DNA from: Halostella salina
Lineage (GTDB): Archaea > Halobacteriota > Halobacteria > Halobacteriales > Natronoarchaeaceae
Reading direction: 5' to 3'
DNA length: 64,000 nt
Assembly (NCBI RefSeq): GCF_003675855.1
Contig: NZ_RCIH01000004.1
Span: 186,001 to 250,000 of the forward strand
Shown: in pieces, positions 43,080 through 49,220 of the stretch
Position numbering within the stretch: the stretch's first letter is position 1
Layout of the letters: every line of letters starts with the position of its first letter
The notes under the pieces: model-generated
Seen by the model: only the letters and a program-made list of their open reading frames with translations
What the model was told of the DNA's origin: nothing
Database searches by the model: none
Made by a program: the position numbers and the translations under genes

Positions 43080-44147
43080 ATGACCCAGCACACCACCCGT
43101 CGGCGGTTCCTCGTCGCGGCGGGGGCCGCCGGACTCGCGGGCTGTCTCGGTGGCCCACTGTCCGGCGGTCCGGGGGCCGGCTCCGACGCGCCGCCGCCGA
43201 CCGCCGAAGCTGAACTCCCGGTCGAGTACGACATCGCCCAGCTCCGCGATGAGGTCACCTCCGGCGGTGTCTCGAAGGACGGGATCCCGTCCATCGACGA
43301 CCCTGATTTCGAGCGCGCGGACGACGCTGATGGCCGCCTCGACGACGGGGACGTGGTGTTCGGCGTCGTCCGGGACGGCGAGGCGAAAGCGTACCCGCAG
43401 TACGTGCTGGTTCACCACGAGATCGTCAACGACGAGGTCGGCGGCGACCCGGTCAGCGTCACGTACTGCCCGCTGACCGGGACCGCCCAGGGGTTCGAGC
43501 GCGGGGAGACGACGTTCGGCGTCTCGGGCGACCTGCTCAACAGCAACCTCGTGATGTACGACCGCGGCACCGACAGCCGATGGCCGCAGATGCTCGCCAC
43601 CGCGATCCGGGGGGAACTCCAGTGGGAGCGCCTCCGGGAGTTCCCCGTCGCGTGGACGACGTGGGGGCGCTGGCGCGAGGCGCACCCCGAGACGGCGGTG
43701 CTGACGGAGGACACCGGCCACGTCCGGGACTACGGCGACGACCCCTACGGGAACTACAACCCCCGAAAGGGGTACTACGAGAGCGGCCTGTCGCTGTTCC
43801 CGACGCTCGCGACGGACGACCGCCTCGACGCCAAGTCGGTCGTCGTCGGGACGCGGACGACCGACGGCGTCCTCGCGGTGCGGAAGGCGTCGCTCCGCGA
43901 GGCGGGCGTCGTCGACGCGACGGCCGACGGAACGCGCTTCCTCGGGGTTCACGACCCCGAACTGGACGTTGGATACGTGTACCGCAACCCCGACGGGGCG
44001 ACGTTCGAGCGCCGTGACGGCGCGGTCGTCGGGCCGGACGGGGACGAGTACGCCCCCGCCGACCTCCCGCTGGACCGGTCCCTCTCGTACCACGCCATGT
44101 GGTTCGCGTGGGCGGGGTTCTACCCGTCGACGGCGCTCCATGACTGA
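43080..44147 (+). CDS. DUF3179 domain protein, Tat-exported lipoprotein
   Basis: 355 residues. N-terminus TRRRFLVAAGAAGLAGC is a twin-arginine signal followed by a lipobox, so it is exported folded and anchored to the membrane outer face. The mature part is one DUF3179 domain, with the characteristic VHHEIVNDEVGGDPVSVTYCPLTGTA (conserved Cys), DRGTDSRWPQML and NPRKGYYESG. Function unknown. TATA-like GTTAATCC about 30 bases upstream. The last 8 bases overlap the start of the MerT-like membrane gene, so the two form an operon. Confidence 0.88.
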   Translation: MTQHTTRRRFLVAAGAAGLAGCLGGPLSGGPGAGSDAPPPTAEAELPVEYDIAQLRDEVTSGGVSKDGIPSIDDPDFERADDADGRLDDGDVVFGVVRDGEAKAYPQYVLVHHEIVNDEVGGDPVSVTYCPLTGTAQGFERGETTFGVSGDLLNSNLVMYDRGTDSRWPQMLATAIRGELQWERLREFPVAWTTWGRWREAHPETAVLTEDTGHVRDYGDDPYGNYNPRKGYYESGLSLFPTLATDDRLDAKSVVVGTRTTDGVLAVRKASLREAGVVDATADGTRFLGVHDPELDVGYVYRNPDGATFERRDGAVVGPDGDEYAPADLPLDRSLSYHAMWFAWAGFYPSTALHD

Positions 44148-44721
44148 CGCGCTCCGACACACGGCGGCGGTGGTCCGCCTGGCGCTCGGCCGCCGTGACG
44201 GCGCAGCCGTCGCCGCGACGACCGGCCTCGCCTATCTCCTCGCGTACCTGTACGCGCTCGGCGACCTGGCGGTCCGGCCGGGTCTCGGAACGGACCTCGT
44301 CGTCGCCCGGGAGCCGCTGACGACGGCGTTCCGCCGCGTCGGTCCGGCAACGTTCGAGGCGGTCGCGCTGGTCGACGTCCACGTCGTTCGGCTGCTGTTC
44401 TCGCCCGGCAACGTCCTCGTCGGCGGCGCGCTCGCCGCGCTCGTCGGGGCGAACCTCGCGCTCACCTACCTCGCGGTGCGACAGCCGCGGGCTTGCGGAC
44501 TGTCCCCGACGGCGGGTCTCGCGGCGTCGCTCCCGGCGCTGCTCTCCGGCACGGCCTGCTGTGGCCCGGTCATCCTGCTGTTGCTCGGGATCCAGGCCAG
44601 CGGCCTCCTCCTGACGGCGTTCGCGTGGCTGGTCCCGGTCGGGGGGCTGTTGCTGCTCGGGACGCTGGTGCTCGCTGGCCGACGCGTCGACCCCGCGGCT
44701 CTGGCGGCCGGGGACGCGTGA
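44140..44721 (+). CDS. Membrane protein with MerT-like CC-GP motif
   Basis: 193 residues from ATG 44140. About five hydrophobic segments. The fourth, LLSGTACCGPVILLLLGIQASGLLL, resembles the first helix of the mercuric-ion transporter MerT and related small metal carriers (ACCLGPLVLIALG), with paired Cys at the membrane face and one residue fewer before Gly-Pro. A metal-ion or thiol role is inferred only from this motif. Translationally coupled to the DUF3179 lipoprotein by an 8-base overlap. Confidence 0.7.
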   Translation: MTDALRHTAAVVRLALGRRDGAAVAATTGLAYLLAYLYALGDLAVRPGLGTDLVVAREPLTTAFRRVGPATFEAVALVDVHVVRLLFSPGNVLVGGALAALVGANLALTYLAVRQPRACGLSPTAGLAASLPALLSGTACCGPVILLLLGIQASGLLLTAFAWLVPVGGLLLLGTLVLAGRRVDPAALAAGDA

Positions 44722-44726
44722 CCTCG

Positions 44727-45455
44727 TCAGTTACTACTCTCGGCTGTAGTGGCGGTCGCGTTCGCCGACACCTCGACGGTCGAGTCCTCGCGGATCGCCG
44801 CCCAGTCCGTGATCCCCGTGACGGTGCCGTTCGCCAGGTCGACGTCGACGCTGTATCGCAGGTCGCGGCGCTCGTCCGCGCTCGGCTGCCGGACCCTGAC
44901 GACCGCACGGTCCTCGACGTAGGACGGGTCGCGCTCGACGACGACCGCGTCGTCCCGGTCCTCGGCGGAGACGTTGCCGGTGAAGACGTACGTCTGGTTG
45001 CCGCTGCCGTTCGTGACGCCGTCCGCGTCGATGGTGACGTTGTAACTCCGCATCCGGTCGGCGGTCACCCGGTAGACCGGATCGACGCCGAGTTCGTACC
45101 CGTCCAGCCGGTCGAGTTTCGCACGGACGGTGGCGTTGCTTCGGGCGATCTCGACGGCGCGGTCGCGTTCGGCGGCCGAGAGCGGCCGCTCGGCTTCCGT
45201 CTCGACCGTGAAGCGGCCGGGCGCGGTCTCTTCGACCCGGATCGCGGTGACGTTCGCCGTGTTCTCGACGACCGTCACGTTCCCCGCGCCGTCCGAGAAC
45301 GTGACCGAATCGCCGGCGACGACGAACTCCCCGCTCGTGCCCCCGGCCCCGATCGGTTCGGTCACGCCGACCGCGGCTCCGACCCCCGCCAGCCCGACGC
45401 CGAGCGCGGCGAGACAGAGCAGGACAGCGAGGCGCACGCGGACGTGGCTTCCCAT
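44727..45455 (-). CDS. Exported protein of unknown function, PepSY-like (partner A of the membrane HTH)
   Basis: 242 residues. Signal peptide LAVLLCLAALGVGLAGVGAAVG, then an Asn/Thr-rich beta domain with many potential N-glycosylation sites (NATV, NVTI, NGSG, NQTY). The segment AERDRAVEIARSNATVRAKL ... DLRYSVDVDLANGTVTGI has the helix-strand-VDLxxGTVxxI rhythm of PepSY-like domains, as does the protein at 46383-46991. It lacks a C-terminal membrane anchor. Its promoter carries a ~46-bp element shared with that second protein. Divergent from the membrane HTH gene at 45601. Confidence 0.72.
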   Translation of the reverse strand: MGSHVRVRLAVLLCLAALGVGLAGVGAAVGVTEPIGAGGTSGEFVVAGDSVTFSDGAGNVTVVENTANVTAIRVEETAPGRFTVETEAERPLSAAERDRAVEIARSNATVRAKLDRLDGYELGVDPVYRVTADRMRSYNVTIDADGVTNGSGNQTYVFTGNVSAEDRDDAVVVERDPSYVEDRAVVRVRQPSADERRDLRYSVDVDLANGTVTGITDWAAIREDSTVEVSANATATTAESSN

Positions 45456-45484
45456 ACTGACGTGTTCGCTGCAAGCCCCAATAA

Positions 45485-45530
45485 CCGTTCATTGGAAACG
45501 CGTTCGGAAGCAGTTGGAAACGCGTTTCAC
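45485..45530 (-). promoter_or_regulatory. Conserved regulatory element, copy A
   Basis: Read on the minus strand from 45530, it runs GTGAAACGCGTTTCC ... GTTTCCAAT(G)AACGG and leads into the TATA box (GTTATTGG, about 27 bases before ATG 45455). It contains the perfect palindrome GAAACGCGTTTC and, on the plus strand, the 13-base direct repeat TTGGAAACGCGTT at 45492 and 45514 (22-base period, about two helical turns). Copy B at 46221-46265 matches over its whole length. Confidence 0.7.
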
Positions 45531-45600
45531 GGCGTTTCACGGCCGCTGCGGGCCGTATAGACCAACACACTGAAGTCCTATTCAGCGGATACGTTCGCGC

Positions 45601-46224
45601 ATGGACGCCCGAGCCCTCCGGACCGCCCACCTCGTTGCAGCCGCCGTCTTCGTCGCCGCCGTGCTCGTCCTCGCCGTGCAGTTGATCACGCCCTCTCCCG
45701 TTGTGGTGTCGGTCGGCGAGAGCGGCGCGGAGACGATGCAGGTCGGCCAGTACTTCACCTACGGCGAGGTAGCGGTCGTCGCCGCGGCGGCGCTGGCCGG
45801 CGGCGCGAGCGGGACGTACCTCGTGCTGGGCGGCCGAGACACCTCATCCGCGGATCCGCAACCGGCGAGCGCGCGTGACGGGACCGCGGGGCGGCCGGCC
45901 GCCACCGGCGGAGTCGACGCCAGCGACGACGTGTCCACCGCCCGTGACGGCGGAGACGACTCGCCCGACGACCAGCCTGTCGACCTCCGCGAACGCCGGG
46001 CGGAGACGCTCGACCGGCTGGCCGGCAACGAGGCGACCGTCTTCTCGAAGCTCCTCGATGCCGACGGGGAGATCCCACAGCGTGCGCTCGTCGAGGGGAC
46101 CGACCTCTCGAAGGCGACGGTCAGCCGCACGCTGGACAACCTCGAACACCGGGGGCTGGTCGAGCGCAAACGCAGCGGGATCGGCAACACGGTCCACCTG
46201 CTGGAGCGCAGATCGCGGCCGTGA
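45601..46224 (+). CDS. Membrane-anchored winged-helix transcriptional regulator
   Basis: 207 residues. Two hydrophobic segments near the N-terminus (HLVAAAVFVAAVLVLAVQL and VAVVAAAALAGGASGTYLVL), with a short extracytoplasmic loop between (SPVVVSVGESGAETMQVGQYFTYGE). Then an Asp/Ser linker and a C-terminal MarR-like winged helix (about 140-205: VFSKLLDADGEIPQRALVEGTDLSKATVSRTLDNLEHRGLVERKR). This layout would pass an envelope signal directly to DNA. It is flanked by two genes for exported proteins whose promoters share one element; it probably binds those sites. Confidence 0.85.
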   Translation: MDARALRTAHLVAAAVFVAAVLVLAVQLITPSPVVVSVGESGAETMQVGQYFTYGEVAVVAAAALAGGASGTYLVLGGRDTSSADPQPASARDGTAGRPAATGGVDASDDVSTARDGGDDSPDDQPVDLRERRAETLDRLAGNEATVFSKLLDADGEIPQRALVEGTDLSKATVSRTLDNLEHRGLVERKRSGIGNTVHLLERRSRP

Positions 46225-46265
46225 AACGGTTCCGAACCGGTTCCTGAGGGGTTTCCAATAAACGG
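46221..46265 (+). promoter_or_regulatory. Conserved regulatory element, copy B
   Basis: Begins at the stop codon of the membrane HTH gene: GTGAAACGGTTCC, a CGGTTC-C-GAACCG palindrome (46226-46238), then GTTTCCAAT(A)AACGG and a TATA-like tail. It lies upstream of the exported protein at 46383, leaving a leader of roughly 80-90 bases. It aligns with copy A over about 45 bases, and the 30-base core at 46250-46279 matches 24 of 30 positions. Confidence 0.65.
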
Positions 46266-46382
46266 CTTTGAGGGCTTTCGCACAACGGTGTACCGCGGCG
46301 AACGGGGCGACGGTGGCGCTGGTCCCCGCCGAACCCGCGCGGACGAATCGTCACCGTCGCCCCGGCAGCCGCCACGACACCC

Positions 46383-46991
46383 ATGCAACGACAGCTACTC
46401 ACCGTCGCGGTCGCGGCGCTGCTCGCGTTCGGCGCGGGCGGCGTCGCCGCCGCGGCACCGACGAGTCCGCAGCCGGCACCCGGCGACGGGTCGGCCGCGG
46501 ACGTCGCACAGCCCTCCAACCACACCGTCGAAGTCGTCGACCCGGACGACGAACTGAGCGATCGGGACGTCGAGCGTGCGTGGCGAACCGCCTGGGACCA
46601 CGACGCGGTCCGGGACCACTTCGACGGCGGTCCGGTTCACTTCCACGTCGAGGCCGTCGACGGCGACCTCGAAGTGTACGTCGCGCCCGACGAGGGCGCG
46701 CCGCCCGAGGTCGTCGCCGACGTGGCTCTCGACGACGGCACCGTGACCGAGGTCGAGGAACTGAACAACGTCCGGACGGCGTCGGAGTCGGAGACGAAAC
46801 AGCTCCCCGCCGTCGACCTGTTGGACGGTGAGACGACTACCCTCACGCTCGGGAACGTCTCGACCGTCGAGGTCGAGGAGGTCGACCGGTCGGTCACCCT
46901 CACGCCGGTCGAGGCGACCGACGAGCTCGACGTCTCGGTGACCAACGGGACGGTCGACGAAGTCTTCACGGTCAACGCCACCGAGGCGTAA
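46383..46991 (+). CDS. Exported protein of unknown function, PepSY-like (partner B of the membrane HTH)
   Basis: 202 residues. Signal peptide QLLTVAVAALLAFGAGGVAAAA, then an acidic mature part. The stretch LSDRDVERAWRTAWDHDAVRDHFDGGPVHFHVEAVDGDLEVYV ... VVADVALDDGTVTEVEE has a helix, beta strands and a final V-DVALDDGTVTEV strand, the same rhythm as in the protein at 44727-45455. No membrane anchor at the C-terminus. Shares a promoter element with that protein. Ends in a convergent region with an 8-bp-stem hairpin. Confidence 0.72.
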   Translation: MQRQLLTVAVAALLAFGAGGVAAAAPTSPQPAPGDGSAADVAQPSNHTVEVVDPDDELSDRDVERAWRTAWDHDAVRDHFDGGPVHFHVEAVDGDLEVYVAPDEGAPPEVVADVALDDGTVTEVEELNNVRTASESETKQLPAVDLLDGETTTLTLGNVSTVEVEEVDRSVTLTPVEATDELDVSVTNGTVDEVFTVNATEA

Positions 46992-47141: not shown

Positions 47142-48071
47142 TCAGGACTGGGCGTCCGCGTCGGTCTCGGCGACGTAGTTTCGTAGCGCCTCGTCGTCGA
47201 CGGCGTCGAGCACGCGCTCGGTGCCGAGCACCTCGACCAGCTTGCGGACGCCCCGGTCGGAACGGGCCTCGATTTCGGACTCGGACCGCCGGGTCCCGAA
47301 CGCCCGGTCGATGTACGCCTCCCGGAGTTCAATGAACCGGTCGTCGTCCAGGTCGTGGTCGTCGCCGACCTCGTTCTCGAACCACTCGCGCCACCGGTCG
47401 CGGTCGTCCCACTCCCCGGAGAACTCCGTCTCCGGGCGGAGCCAGTCGTAGTGCGGGGCGACGCCCTCGGGGAACCCGCGCTCCCGCCGGCGGTCCTCGA
47501 TCAGACACCGGGCGACGTGGCCCCCGTTGCCGGCGGCGACGACCGCCTGCGCGCTCCGCTGGCCGGCCGGCGACGCGACGTACAGCCCCGCGACCGGCGT
47601 CCGGCCGTCCGCGTCCGGGTAGTCGGGGTCGAAGCGCTCCTCGACCTCGCCGTGGTGCTCCTGCTGCTCGAACATCGTCGGCTCGTCAAGCGCCCGGAGG
47701 TAGGAGCCGTCGTACCACGCGGCCGCGACGACGTAGTCGGCCACGACTCGGCGTCCCTCGTCGGTTTCGACCGTGAACCGCGCGTCGCCGTCCGCTCGCT
47801 CGACCGACTCGACGAGCTCCGGGACGACGGTACTGCCGACTTCCTCGACGTGGGCGTGCATCAGCTCCTGGAACGCGTCCACGTCGACGCCCGCCGGGAA
47901 GCCGAGGTAGTTCTCCAGGTACGCACACCGCGGCAACGCCGCGTTTCCGCGGTCGAACACGACCGTGTCCAGCCCGTACCGGGCGGTGAACACGCCGGCC
48001 GAGCAGCCGGCCGGGCCGCCGCCGACGATAACGACGTCGTGGTCCGCGTCGTGTGACTGTCGGTCGTCCAT
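47142..48071 (-). CDS. FAD-dependent oxidoreductase (thioredoxin-reductase-like), iron-regulated
   Basis: 309 residues. N-terminal FAD-binding VVIVGGGPAGCSAGVFTARYGLDTVVFDRG and a second FAD site in GLYVASPAGQRSAQAVVAAGNGGHVA. It lacks the redox CxxC of thioredoxin reductase. The C-terminal third is hydrophilic and Asp-rich. The gene starts 6 bases after the siderophore-binding lipoprotein gene and shares its iron-box promoter. Inferred role: reduction of ferric chelates or recycling of the siderophore after uptake. Confidence 0.82.
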   Translation of the reverse strand: MDDRQSHDADHDVVIVGGGPAGCSAGVFTARYGLDTVVFDRGNAALPRCAYLENYLGFPAGVDVDAFQELMHAHVEEVGSTVVPELVESVERADGDARFTVETDEGRRVVADYVVAAAWYDGSYLRALDEPTMFEQQEHHGEVEERFDPDYPDADGRTPVAGLYVASPAGQRSAQAVVAAGNGGHVARCLIEDRRRERGFPEGVAPHYDWLRPETEFSGEWDDRDRWREWFENEVGDDHDLDDDRFIELREAYIDRAFGTRRSESEIEARSDRGVRKLVEVLGTERVLDAVDDEALRNYVAETDADAQS

Positions 48072-48077
48072 CGCGGA

Positions 48078-49220
48078 TCAGAACTCCCCGGTGACGATGT
48101 CTGCGACGCGCTGGCGGTCGAACAGCTGTTCCCCGCCGAACTCGTCGGGGTAGAGGCTCCCGGCGATCCGCTCGGTCTGGAACAGGTTGATGATCGGTCC
48201 CTGATAGGTCATCCCGCCGTAGACGACATCGTCGTTCCGGACCGCCCGCAGTTCGCTCGCCACGTCGTGGTTCCGCATGTGCGACACGAAGTCGGCCTCG
48301 AACCCCGCCTCGGTCACCTCGCCCTGCTGGCGGATGGCGATCACGTCCGGGTCGACCTCCAGCAGCGTCTCGTAGTCGATCGTCCCGCGGCTGGCGTGGA
48401 AGTCCGCCACGTCGCTCTCGGCCAGCGCGCGGTCGACTCCGAGGTCCCGCCAGTGCTTGGACTGGGTGCCCGAACCGATGACGTAGGGGTAGAACGCCTC
48501 CGGCGGGACGGATTTGGGGAACAGCACCGCGACGCTGGGCCGTTCGTCCGGAAGCCGGGAGTCCACGTCCGAGAGCACCTCGTCGTGCAGTTCGGCGAAC
48601 GCCTCGTAGCGTTCTTGCTCCTGGAACACCTGGGCCACCTTCTCGAACGCCTCGTACAGCGTGTACTGCTCGTAGTCGTGCCACCCGTAGCTCCCCGAGA
48701 ACACCGTGTTGCCGACGAAGGGGGCGACCCGCGAGCCGACCGTATCGACGTCATCCCGGTCCCACTGGATCCGGTTTATCATGAAGTTCGGGTCGATGAG
48801 GTGGACGTCGGCGTCGATGTCGTAGAACAGTTCCCTGTCGGTGCCGTCCTGCCAGAGCTGCGTGAGTTCGCCCTTGTCCACGGAGACGCCGGGCAGTTCG
48901 TCGTAGTGGTGCGAGCCGAAGCGGCGGCGGATCCCGATCGCTTCGAGGCCGTCGGCCTGCCCGAGCGCGACGCCCATGTCGGCGTAGTCGCCAGTGTAGG
49001 GGAACCAGGTCTCCGGCGGTTCGTCGAACTCGACGGTGCCGACCGGCTCCATCGTCACGGAGTGCGGACCGGTGTCCTCGCCCGTCGCCGTCGATCCATC
49101 GTCCCCCGTCGGGTCGTCGTCGGTACCGCTGTACGACGTGCAGCCGGCCGTCGCGCCGCCGGCCACGGCGGCGGCAGTCGCCCGGAGCGTGTCGCGTCGC
49201 GTCAGATCGCGTTCGACCAT
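48078..49220 (-). CDS. Ferric siderophore ABC transporter substrate-binding lipoprotein
   Basis: 380 residues. Begins with a Tat-type signal (TRRDTLRATAAAVAGG) and a lipobox ending at the Cys of TAGC. The mature part has the periplasmic-binding-protein pattern of the FepB/BtuF class: WFPYTGDYADMGVALG, ... DVHLIDPNFM, VAPFVGNTVFSG, LLEVDPDVIAI. No permease or ATPase gene lies nearby, so it must work with a transporter encoded elsewhere. Directly downstream of a DtxR-type iron box. First gene of a two-gene operon with the FAD reductase. Confidence 0.88.
   Translation of the reverse strand: MVERDLTRRDTLRATAAAVAGGATAGCTSYSGTDDDPTGDDGSTATGEDTGPHSVTMEPVGTVEFDEPPETWFPYTGDYADMGVALGQADGLEAIGIRRRFGSHHYDELPGVSVDKGELTQLWQDGTDRELFYDIDADVHLIDPNFMINRIQWDRDDVDTVGSRVAPFVGNTVFSGSYGWHDYEQYTLYEAFEKVAQVFQEQERYEAFAELHDEVLSDVDSRLPDERPSVAVLFPKSVPPEAFYPYVIGSGTQSKHWRDLGVDRALAESDVADFHASRGTIDYETLLEVDPDVIAIRQQGEVTEAGFEADFVSHMRNHDVASELRAVRNDDVVYGGMTYQGPIINLFQTERIAGSLYPDEFGGEQLFDRQRVADIVTGEF

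Follow-up and report, generated by a model that had tools for sequence, protein, structure and literature searches.

One-component regulators that reside in the membrane are a known kind and include the transmembrane regulators (TTRs) ToxR and CadC and the archaeal ArnR/ArnR1 of Sulfolobus (PMC10269533, PMC6396743, PMC13286277). In the co-component systems VtrA/VtrC and ToxR/ToxS, the membrane-tethered regulator is encoded next to a partner, exported or in the membrane, that evolves fast (PMC9214523), and in haloarchaea the GvpE UAS provides an example of an activator site adjacent to a BRE between divergent promoters (PMC4390858). The three adjacent genes described here (A, B, and C; table 1), found in a 64,000-nucleotide stretch of Halostella salina DNA (herein referred to as the window), can be compared with each of these. 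Like the TTRs, B carries a DNA-binding domain and at least one transmembrane (TM) segment in a single chain, and its action at the membrane is predicted; it differs from them in having, in place of a sensor domain, a short conserved loop, and a C-terminal DUF7343 winged helix (wHTH) behind two TMs, in that its sole detected candidate targets are the two adjacent exported-protein genes, and in falling outside the families described in those three papers on TTRs. The trio shares with VtrA/VtrC and ToxR/ToxS the placement of a regulator beside an exported partner, but is archaeal, and the partners themselves carry the shared putative operator; classification as a VtrA/VtrC-like co-component system was rejected, as no lipocalin-like fold was found for A or C and B is without a periplasmic domain. 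The candidate operator resembles the GvpE site in lying beside a BRE between divergent promoters, whereas GvpE is leucine-zipper-like, belongs to gas vesicle clusters and, unlike B, is neither a wHTH protein nor membrane-anchored. CpxP/Spy–CpxA is a case of feedback on a two-component kinase system with a cytoplasmic response regulator, which the trio would resemble if the sensor were restrained by C or A and had that protein as its main target; we are aware of no homology between the two. To our knowledge, no system with this three-gene layout has been described, and the open-access literature yielded no description of this family, its layout or DUF7343.

The open reading frames, strands and coordinates of the trio were the same on re-check as in a preliminary description of this DNA, with A divergent from B and C downstream of B. 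Elsewhere in the window, a small membrane protein with weak MerT-like similarity (44140–44721; E 0.007, below the Pfam cut-off) lies beside a DUF3179 protein (43080–44147), and 47142–49220 encodes an FAD-dependent oxidoreductase and, next to it, a periplasmic-binding protein (Peripla_BP_2) with a TAT signal.

Table 1. Genes, putative operators, core promoters and leader of the trio, in window coordinates.
Feature	Position	Strand	Description
Gene A (P0001, 242 aa)	44727..45455	minus	N-terminal TM/signal-anchor helix, beta-rich N domain, b-aa-bbbb core domain
Core promoter of A	45456..45494	minus	Degenerate TATA-like GGTTATTGGG at ~45478-45487, conserved CTT(T/G)C-N-CAA-like tract; inferred from comparative alignment
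Operator of A (putative)	45495..45538	minus	GAAAC at 45495, degenerate GGAAG at 45506, GTTTC at 45534; phase 10-11 bp
Palindrome in operator of A	45517-45528	minus	GAAACGCGTTTC
Gene B (P0002, 207 aa)	45601..46224	plus	Two TM helices, loop, linker, C-terminal wHTH
Operator of C (putative)	46221..46265	plus	GAAAC at 46223, GTTCC at 46229 and 46240, GTTTC at 46251; 11-bp phase; then CAATAAACGG
Core promoter of C	46266..46290	plus	TATA-position CTTTGAGGG, then CTTTC-G-CACAA
Structured 5' leader of C	46287..46377	plus	Long hairpin with perfectly complementary arms (46304-46315 and 46352-46363)
Gene C (P0003, 202 aa)	46383..46991	plus	Exported; b-aa-bbbb core at ~residues 40-126, divergent C-terminal part

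Inspection of B again yielded the winged-helix protein with two N-terminal membrane segments and a short outside loop that had been reported: hydrophobic segments at residues ~8–29 and ~55–77 (topology predicted, by inspection), an outside loop of ~25 residues (30–54), then a variable linker and a wHTH (138–200) with a Pfam match to DUF7343 (E 3.8e-12) and a weaker one to MarR. Although B is without a sensor domain, its loop is conserved about as strongly as its TM helices. B was rejected as a MarR family regulator (a soluble dimer in which MarR dimerisation helices flank the wHTH), as the wHTH alone matches (142–200) and the remainder of the protein is TM and linker; PADLOC returned only generic HTH hits for B.

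A and C both begin with hydrophobic export signals or anchors, in line with the exported proteins of the preliminary description, and their cores align in profile–profile comparison (P 95%, E 2.2e-8). A comparison of their predicted structures, which that description had called for, gave the same picture: the separate AlphaFold models, confident in the core, follow an identical b-aa-bbbb order. Judged from sequence, the core domain that A and C share is homologous. The N-terminal helix of A is retained, was modelled with fair confidence, and could anchor A in the membrane. The PepSY-like pattern once ascribed to both proteins did not hold up (no Pfam PepSY match among 12 A and 7 C members), and since Foldseek found no significant match in the PDB for either model, the PepSY label is unsupported and was rejected. 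Neither protein matches a Pfam or NCBIfam family above cut-off, a sequence search for relatives of solved structure gave none that was convincing, and no match to defence, toxin or phage families was found for A or C; identification of the trio as an anti-phage defence system was likewise rejected (PADLOC: none for A or C). Relatives of C contain one to four copies of the b-aa-bbbb unit, and C is the most variable part of the trio.

Searching 392 genomes of the order Halobacteriales with a 15-member profile (E 1e-18 or better), we found close relatives of B in 77 genomes and in 30 of 95 genera, the weakest full-length matches lying near 1e-49. Across 75 loci (~10 kb around each B gene, window included), A adjoins B in 73, and 70 contain C or a gene for an exported protein resembling it, so the trio, which the preliminary description would have doubted had it not been conserved, recurs in other haloarchaea; no further neighbour is widespread among these 75 loci. 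Two layouts occur: that of the window, in which A and B diverge and C follows B, and that of clade II, in which A and B are in tandem and a larger C (up to four units) is divergent from A. Two C relatives of ~500 aa with four C units (L043:2862-4361 and L044:5502-7025) belong to the second layout. In a 116-genome sample, every A-positive genome is also B-positive, and the distances of A and B correlate (r 0.75, Mantel 0/1000), a correlation for which shared descent of the entire locus may be the only cause. The cassette is carried by, among others, Halostella pelagica, Haloferax mucosum and species of Halorubrum, Natrinema and Halorussus. It is plasmid-borne in Haloferax mediterranei (in ATCC 33500, A is E6P09_RS15890, B RS15895 and C RS15900), Haloarcula litorea, Halomontanus rarus and Halobellus limi, whose annotations place B in the MarR family and call A and C hypothetical.

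Several loci depart from this arrangement. A plasmid of Halobiforma lacisalsi carries an orphan A homologue (L221:4065-4709) with no B, C or array in 9 kb. Two B relatives with the recognition helix SKSHVSRKL (L047:6373-8304 and L048:3884-5920) are without A and without the canonical array; a gene oriented divergently there encodes another acidic protein that is exported. At two further loci (L049:4888-6037 and L050:5405-6560), a 2-TM wHTH protein with a Met/His outside loop lies beside a small exported His-rich protein, a layout that is possibly a metal (copper) version of the A-B-C design.

The shared element of ~46 bp that had been reported is indeed present before both A and C (copy A, GTGAAACGCGTTTCCAACTGCTTCCGAACGCGTTTCCAATGAACGG; copy C, GTGAAACGGTTCCGAACCGGTTCCTGAGGGGTTTCCAATAAACGG), extending in all over ~45485–45538 of the minus strand before A and overlapping the stop codon of B before C; the reported match of 24 of 30 positions did not stand, the best ungapped match being 23 of 30 (24 of 31). 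The palindrome GAAACGCGTTTC reported for copy A was located, and the 22-base direct repeats are real but are better read as two turns of an 11-bp phased array. Within the 3.7-Mb genome (pattern searches only), the 15-mer GTTTCCAATNAACGG occurs in exactly two copies, both at the trio, and the composite GTTTC-N7-TTNC-N6-GTTTC (at most one mismatch) matches the A and C promoters only. An element so short, with only two copies in one genome, could in principle be a chance likeness of two GC-rich promoters; however, the best match in dinucleotide-shuffled controls (n = 40) was 16–19 of 30 against the real 23, the element is conserved in many genera, and a reversed-pattern control gave zero matches in every genome scanned. 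These comparative data refute the chance reading, to which we give next to no credence.

The array also keeps its place and phase across loci. A PWM trained on nine A promoters and tested on 66 held-out loci placed the best site of the locus at most 200 bp upstream of A in 59, and in clade II the array sits between C and A, i.e. it moves with the genes. Spacings between GAAAC/GTTTC half-sites in 71 loci were most often 11 bp (112 instances) and 22 bp (41), with the next commonest seen eight times, and GAAAC-to-GTTTC offsets fell at 7, 18, 29, and 40; half-sites reach a density of 32.9 per kb in array regions versus 2.7 per kb overall. Genome-wide, the composite array is found in 62 of the 77 B-positive genomes but in just 2 of the 315 that are B-negative (Fisher p 5.5e-55, nominal only, as related sequences make the loci non-independent). 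The element is specific to these promoters, whereas widespread occurrence at unrelated genes would have spoken against the earlier proposal. Fifteen B-positive genomes are without the strict composite, some of them carrying variant arrays, and the canonical array is absent from loci with altered recognition helices (SKSHVSRKL, DHSKATVSRKL, TLSEATVSR). Off-locus matches in three genomes (L222–L224) have no trio genes nearby and look like chance occurrences.

Such a distribution would be expected if the array were the operator that B reads, and B very probably binds it. Haloarchaea do carry many wHTH regulators (there are many further weak wHTH matches per genome), one of which could read the array from the cytoplasm with B a mere neighbour; we consider this improbable, given that the array follows B from genome to genome, changes where the recognition helix of B changes, and stands at no other genes in its own genome. 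A local regulon, in which B is predicted to control A and C, is strongly supported by the comparison of genomes.

Downstream of the array, both promoters carry at a fixed distance a block in the TATA position (TTGATGAGG, CTATGAGG), with GGTCTTTCANNCAA after it; the family consensus for the C core promoter is CGTTTCCAATcAA..aCTATcaGGTCTTTCAccCAAcG, and the TATA block of some relatives is TTTATA or GATATATC. The location of the array upstream of a weak TATA favours activation, by analogy with the GvpE UAS beside its BRE (PMC4390858), and we lean moderately toward activation by B rather than repression. The proximity of one half-site to the BRE makes repression possible: bound to an array beside the BRE/TATA, B would exclude TFB/TBP from A and C until released by an outside cue. 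Repression is common among MarR-type wHTH proteins, the array borders the BRE, and no more than ~15 bp separate the last GTTTC from the TATA position, all of which would fit such a role, but the array reaches 40–50 bp upstream rather than over the TATA or start site, and many TATA positions are poor relative to the haloarchaeal consensus, a better fit to activator-dependent promoters. Good TATA boxes (GATATATC) at some loci weaken this last objection, and we hold repression to be the less probable sign, with perhaps one chance in three.

The start codon of A lies close behind its promoter, which would give a leaderless or short-leader message. The leader of C, which begins near the inferred transcription start, is roughly 80–145 nt long and contains a strong hairpin, positions 46280–46382 folding at -66.6 kcal/mol (z -5.9). 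Stems are predicted in relatives (median z of the leaders -2.4; lowest z -8, in L107) but are not kept in sequence among them (MAFFT/RNAalifold), so the structure rests on single-sequence folding z-scores; the hairpin may serve as RNA-level control. A search of the intergenic regions for known RNA families found none.

We hypothesize that the trio constitutes a single, self-contained cassette for extracytoplasmic signalling, an overall explanation that we regard as probable. B would be a transmembrane one-component regulator with both ends inside and a conserved loop of ~25 residues outside, through which it would sense the exterior. Its wHTH would bind GAAAC/GTTTC half-sites that recur every 11 bp along the same face of the DNA, centred on GAAACGCGTTTC; the bound array would lie immediately upstream of the BRE/TATA at both A and C, and B would control, more likely activating than repressing, just these two genes. 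Membrane-anchored A and exported C would then act outside with the loop of B, as co-sensor, ligand or feedback partner, in which case the targets of the regulator would be its own signalling partners. The ties of A and C to the loop are location, co-inheritance and the shared domain only, and we put a physical partnership of A and/or C with the loop at slightly under an even chance. Alternatively, the output proper may be C, a secreted effector that diverges fast (adhesin, inhibitor or antagonistic protein), with A as its anchored helper or protector, B only sensing when to make them and neither being its ligand. The variability of C (1–4 repeat units), its strongly structured leader and the homology of A and C would suit an effector; a conserved loop on a B without a sensor domain, the almost constant company of A and B, and the lack of any defence or toxin family match for A or C would not, and we consider this alternative plausible but the weaker candidate. 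Of the envelope-sensing module first proposed for this locus, the conserved wHTH, the two exported proteins and an element that tracks the regulator stand, and the PepSY identity falls.

More tentatively, the signalling cassette might represent a hitherto undescribed, closed-circuit class in archaea, in which a loop-sensing wHTH protein of the membrane assembles on an 11-bp phased array, the entire regulon consists of two exported sensor partners, and the unit is inherited together, often on plasmids. The cassette gives a plausible role to two families, A and C, that are now annotated as hypothetical. Since Haloferax mediterranei, for which genetics are established, carries the cassette, binding, sign and signal are directly testable. 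Little is known of how archaea perceive outside events if not through kinases, and an operator has been defined for few of their membrane-bound regulators; in the present case, sequence from ~30 genera defines a regulator together with its likely operator and what is likely its complete regulon. With the array almost nowhere else in these genomes, the cassette looks like a self-contained, unstudied way of sensing the outside.
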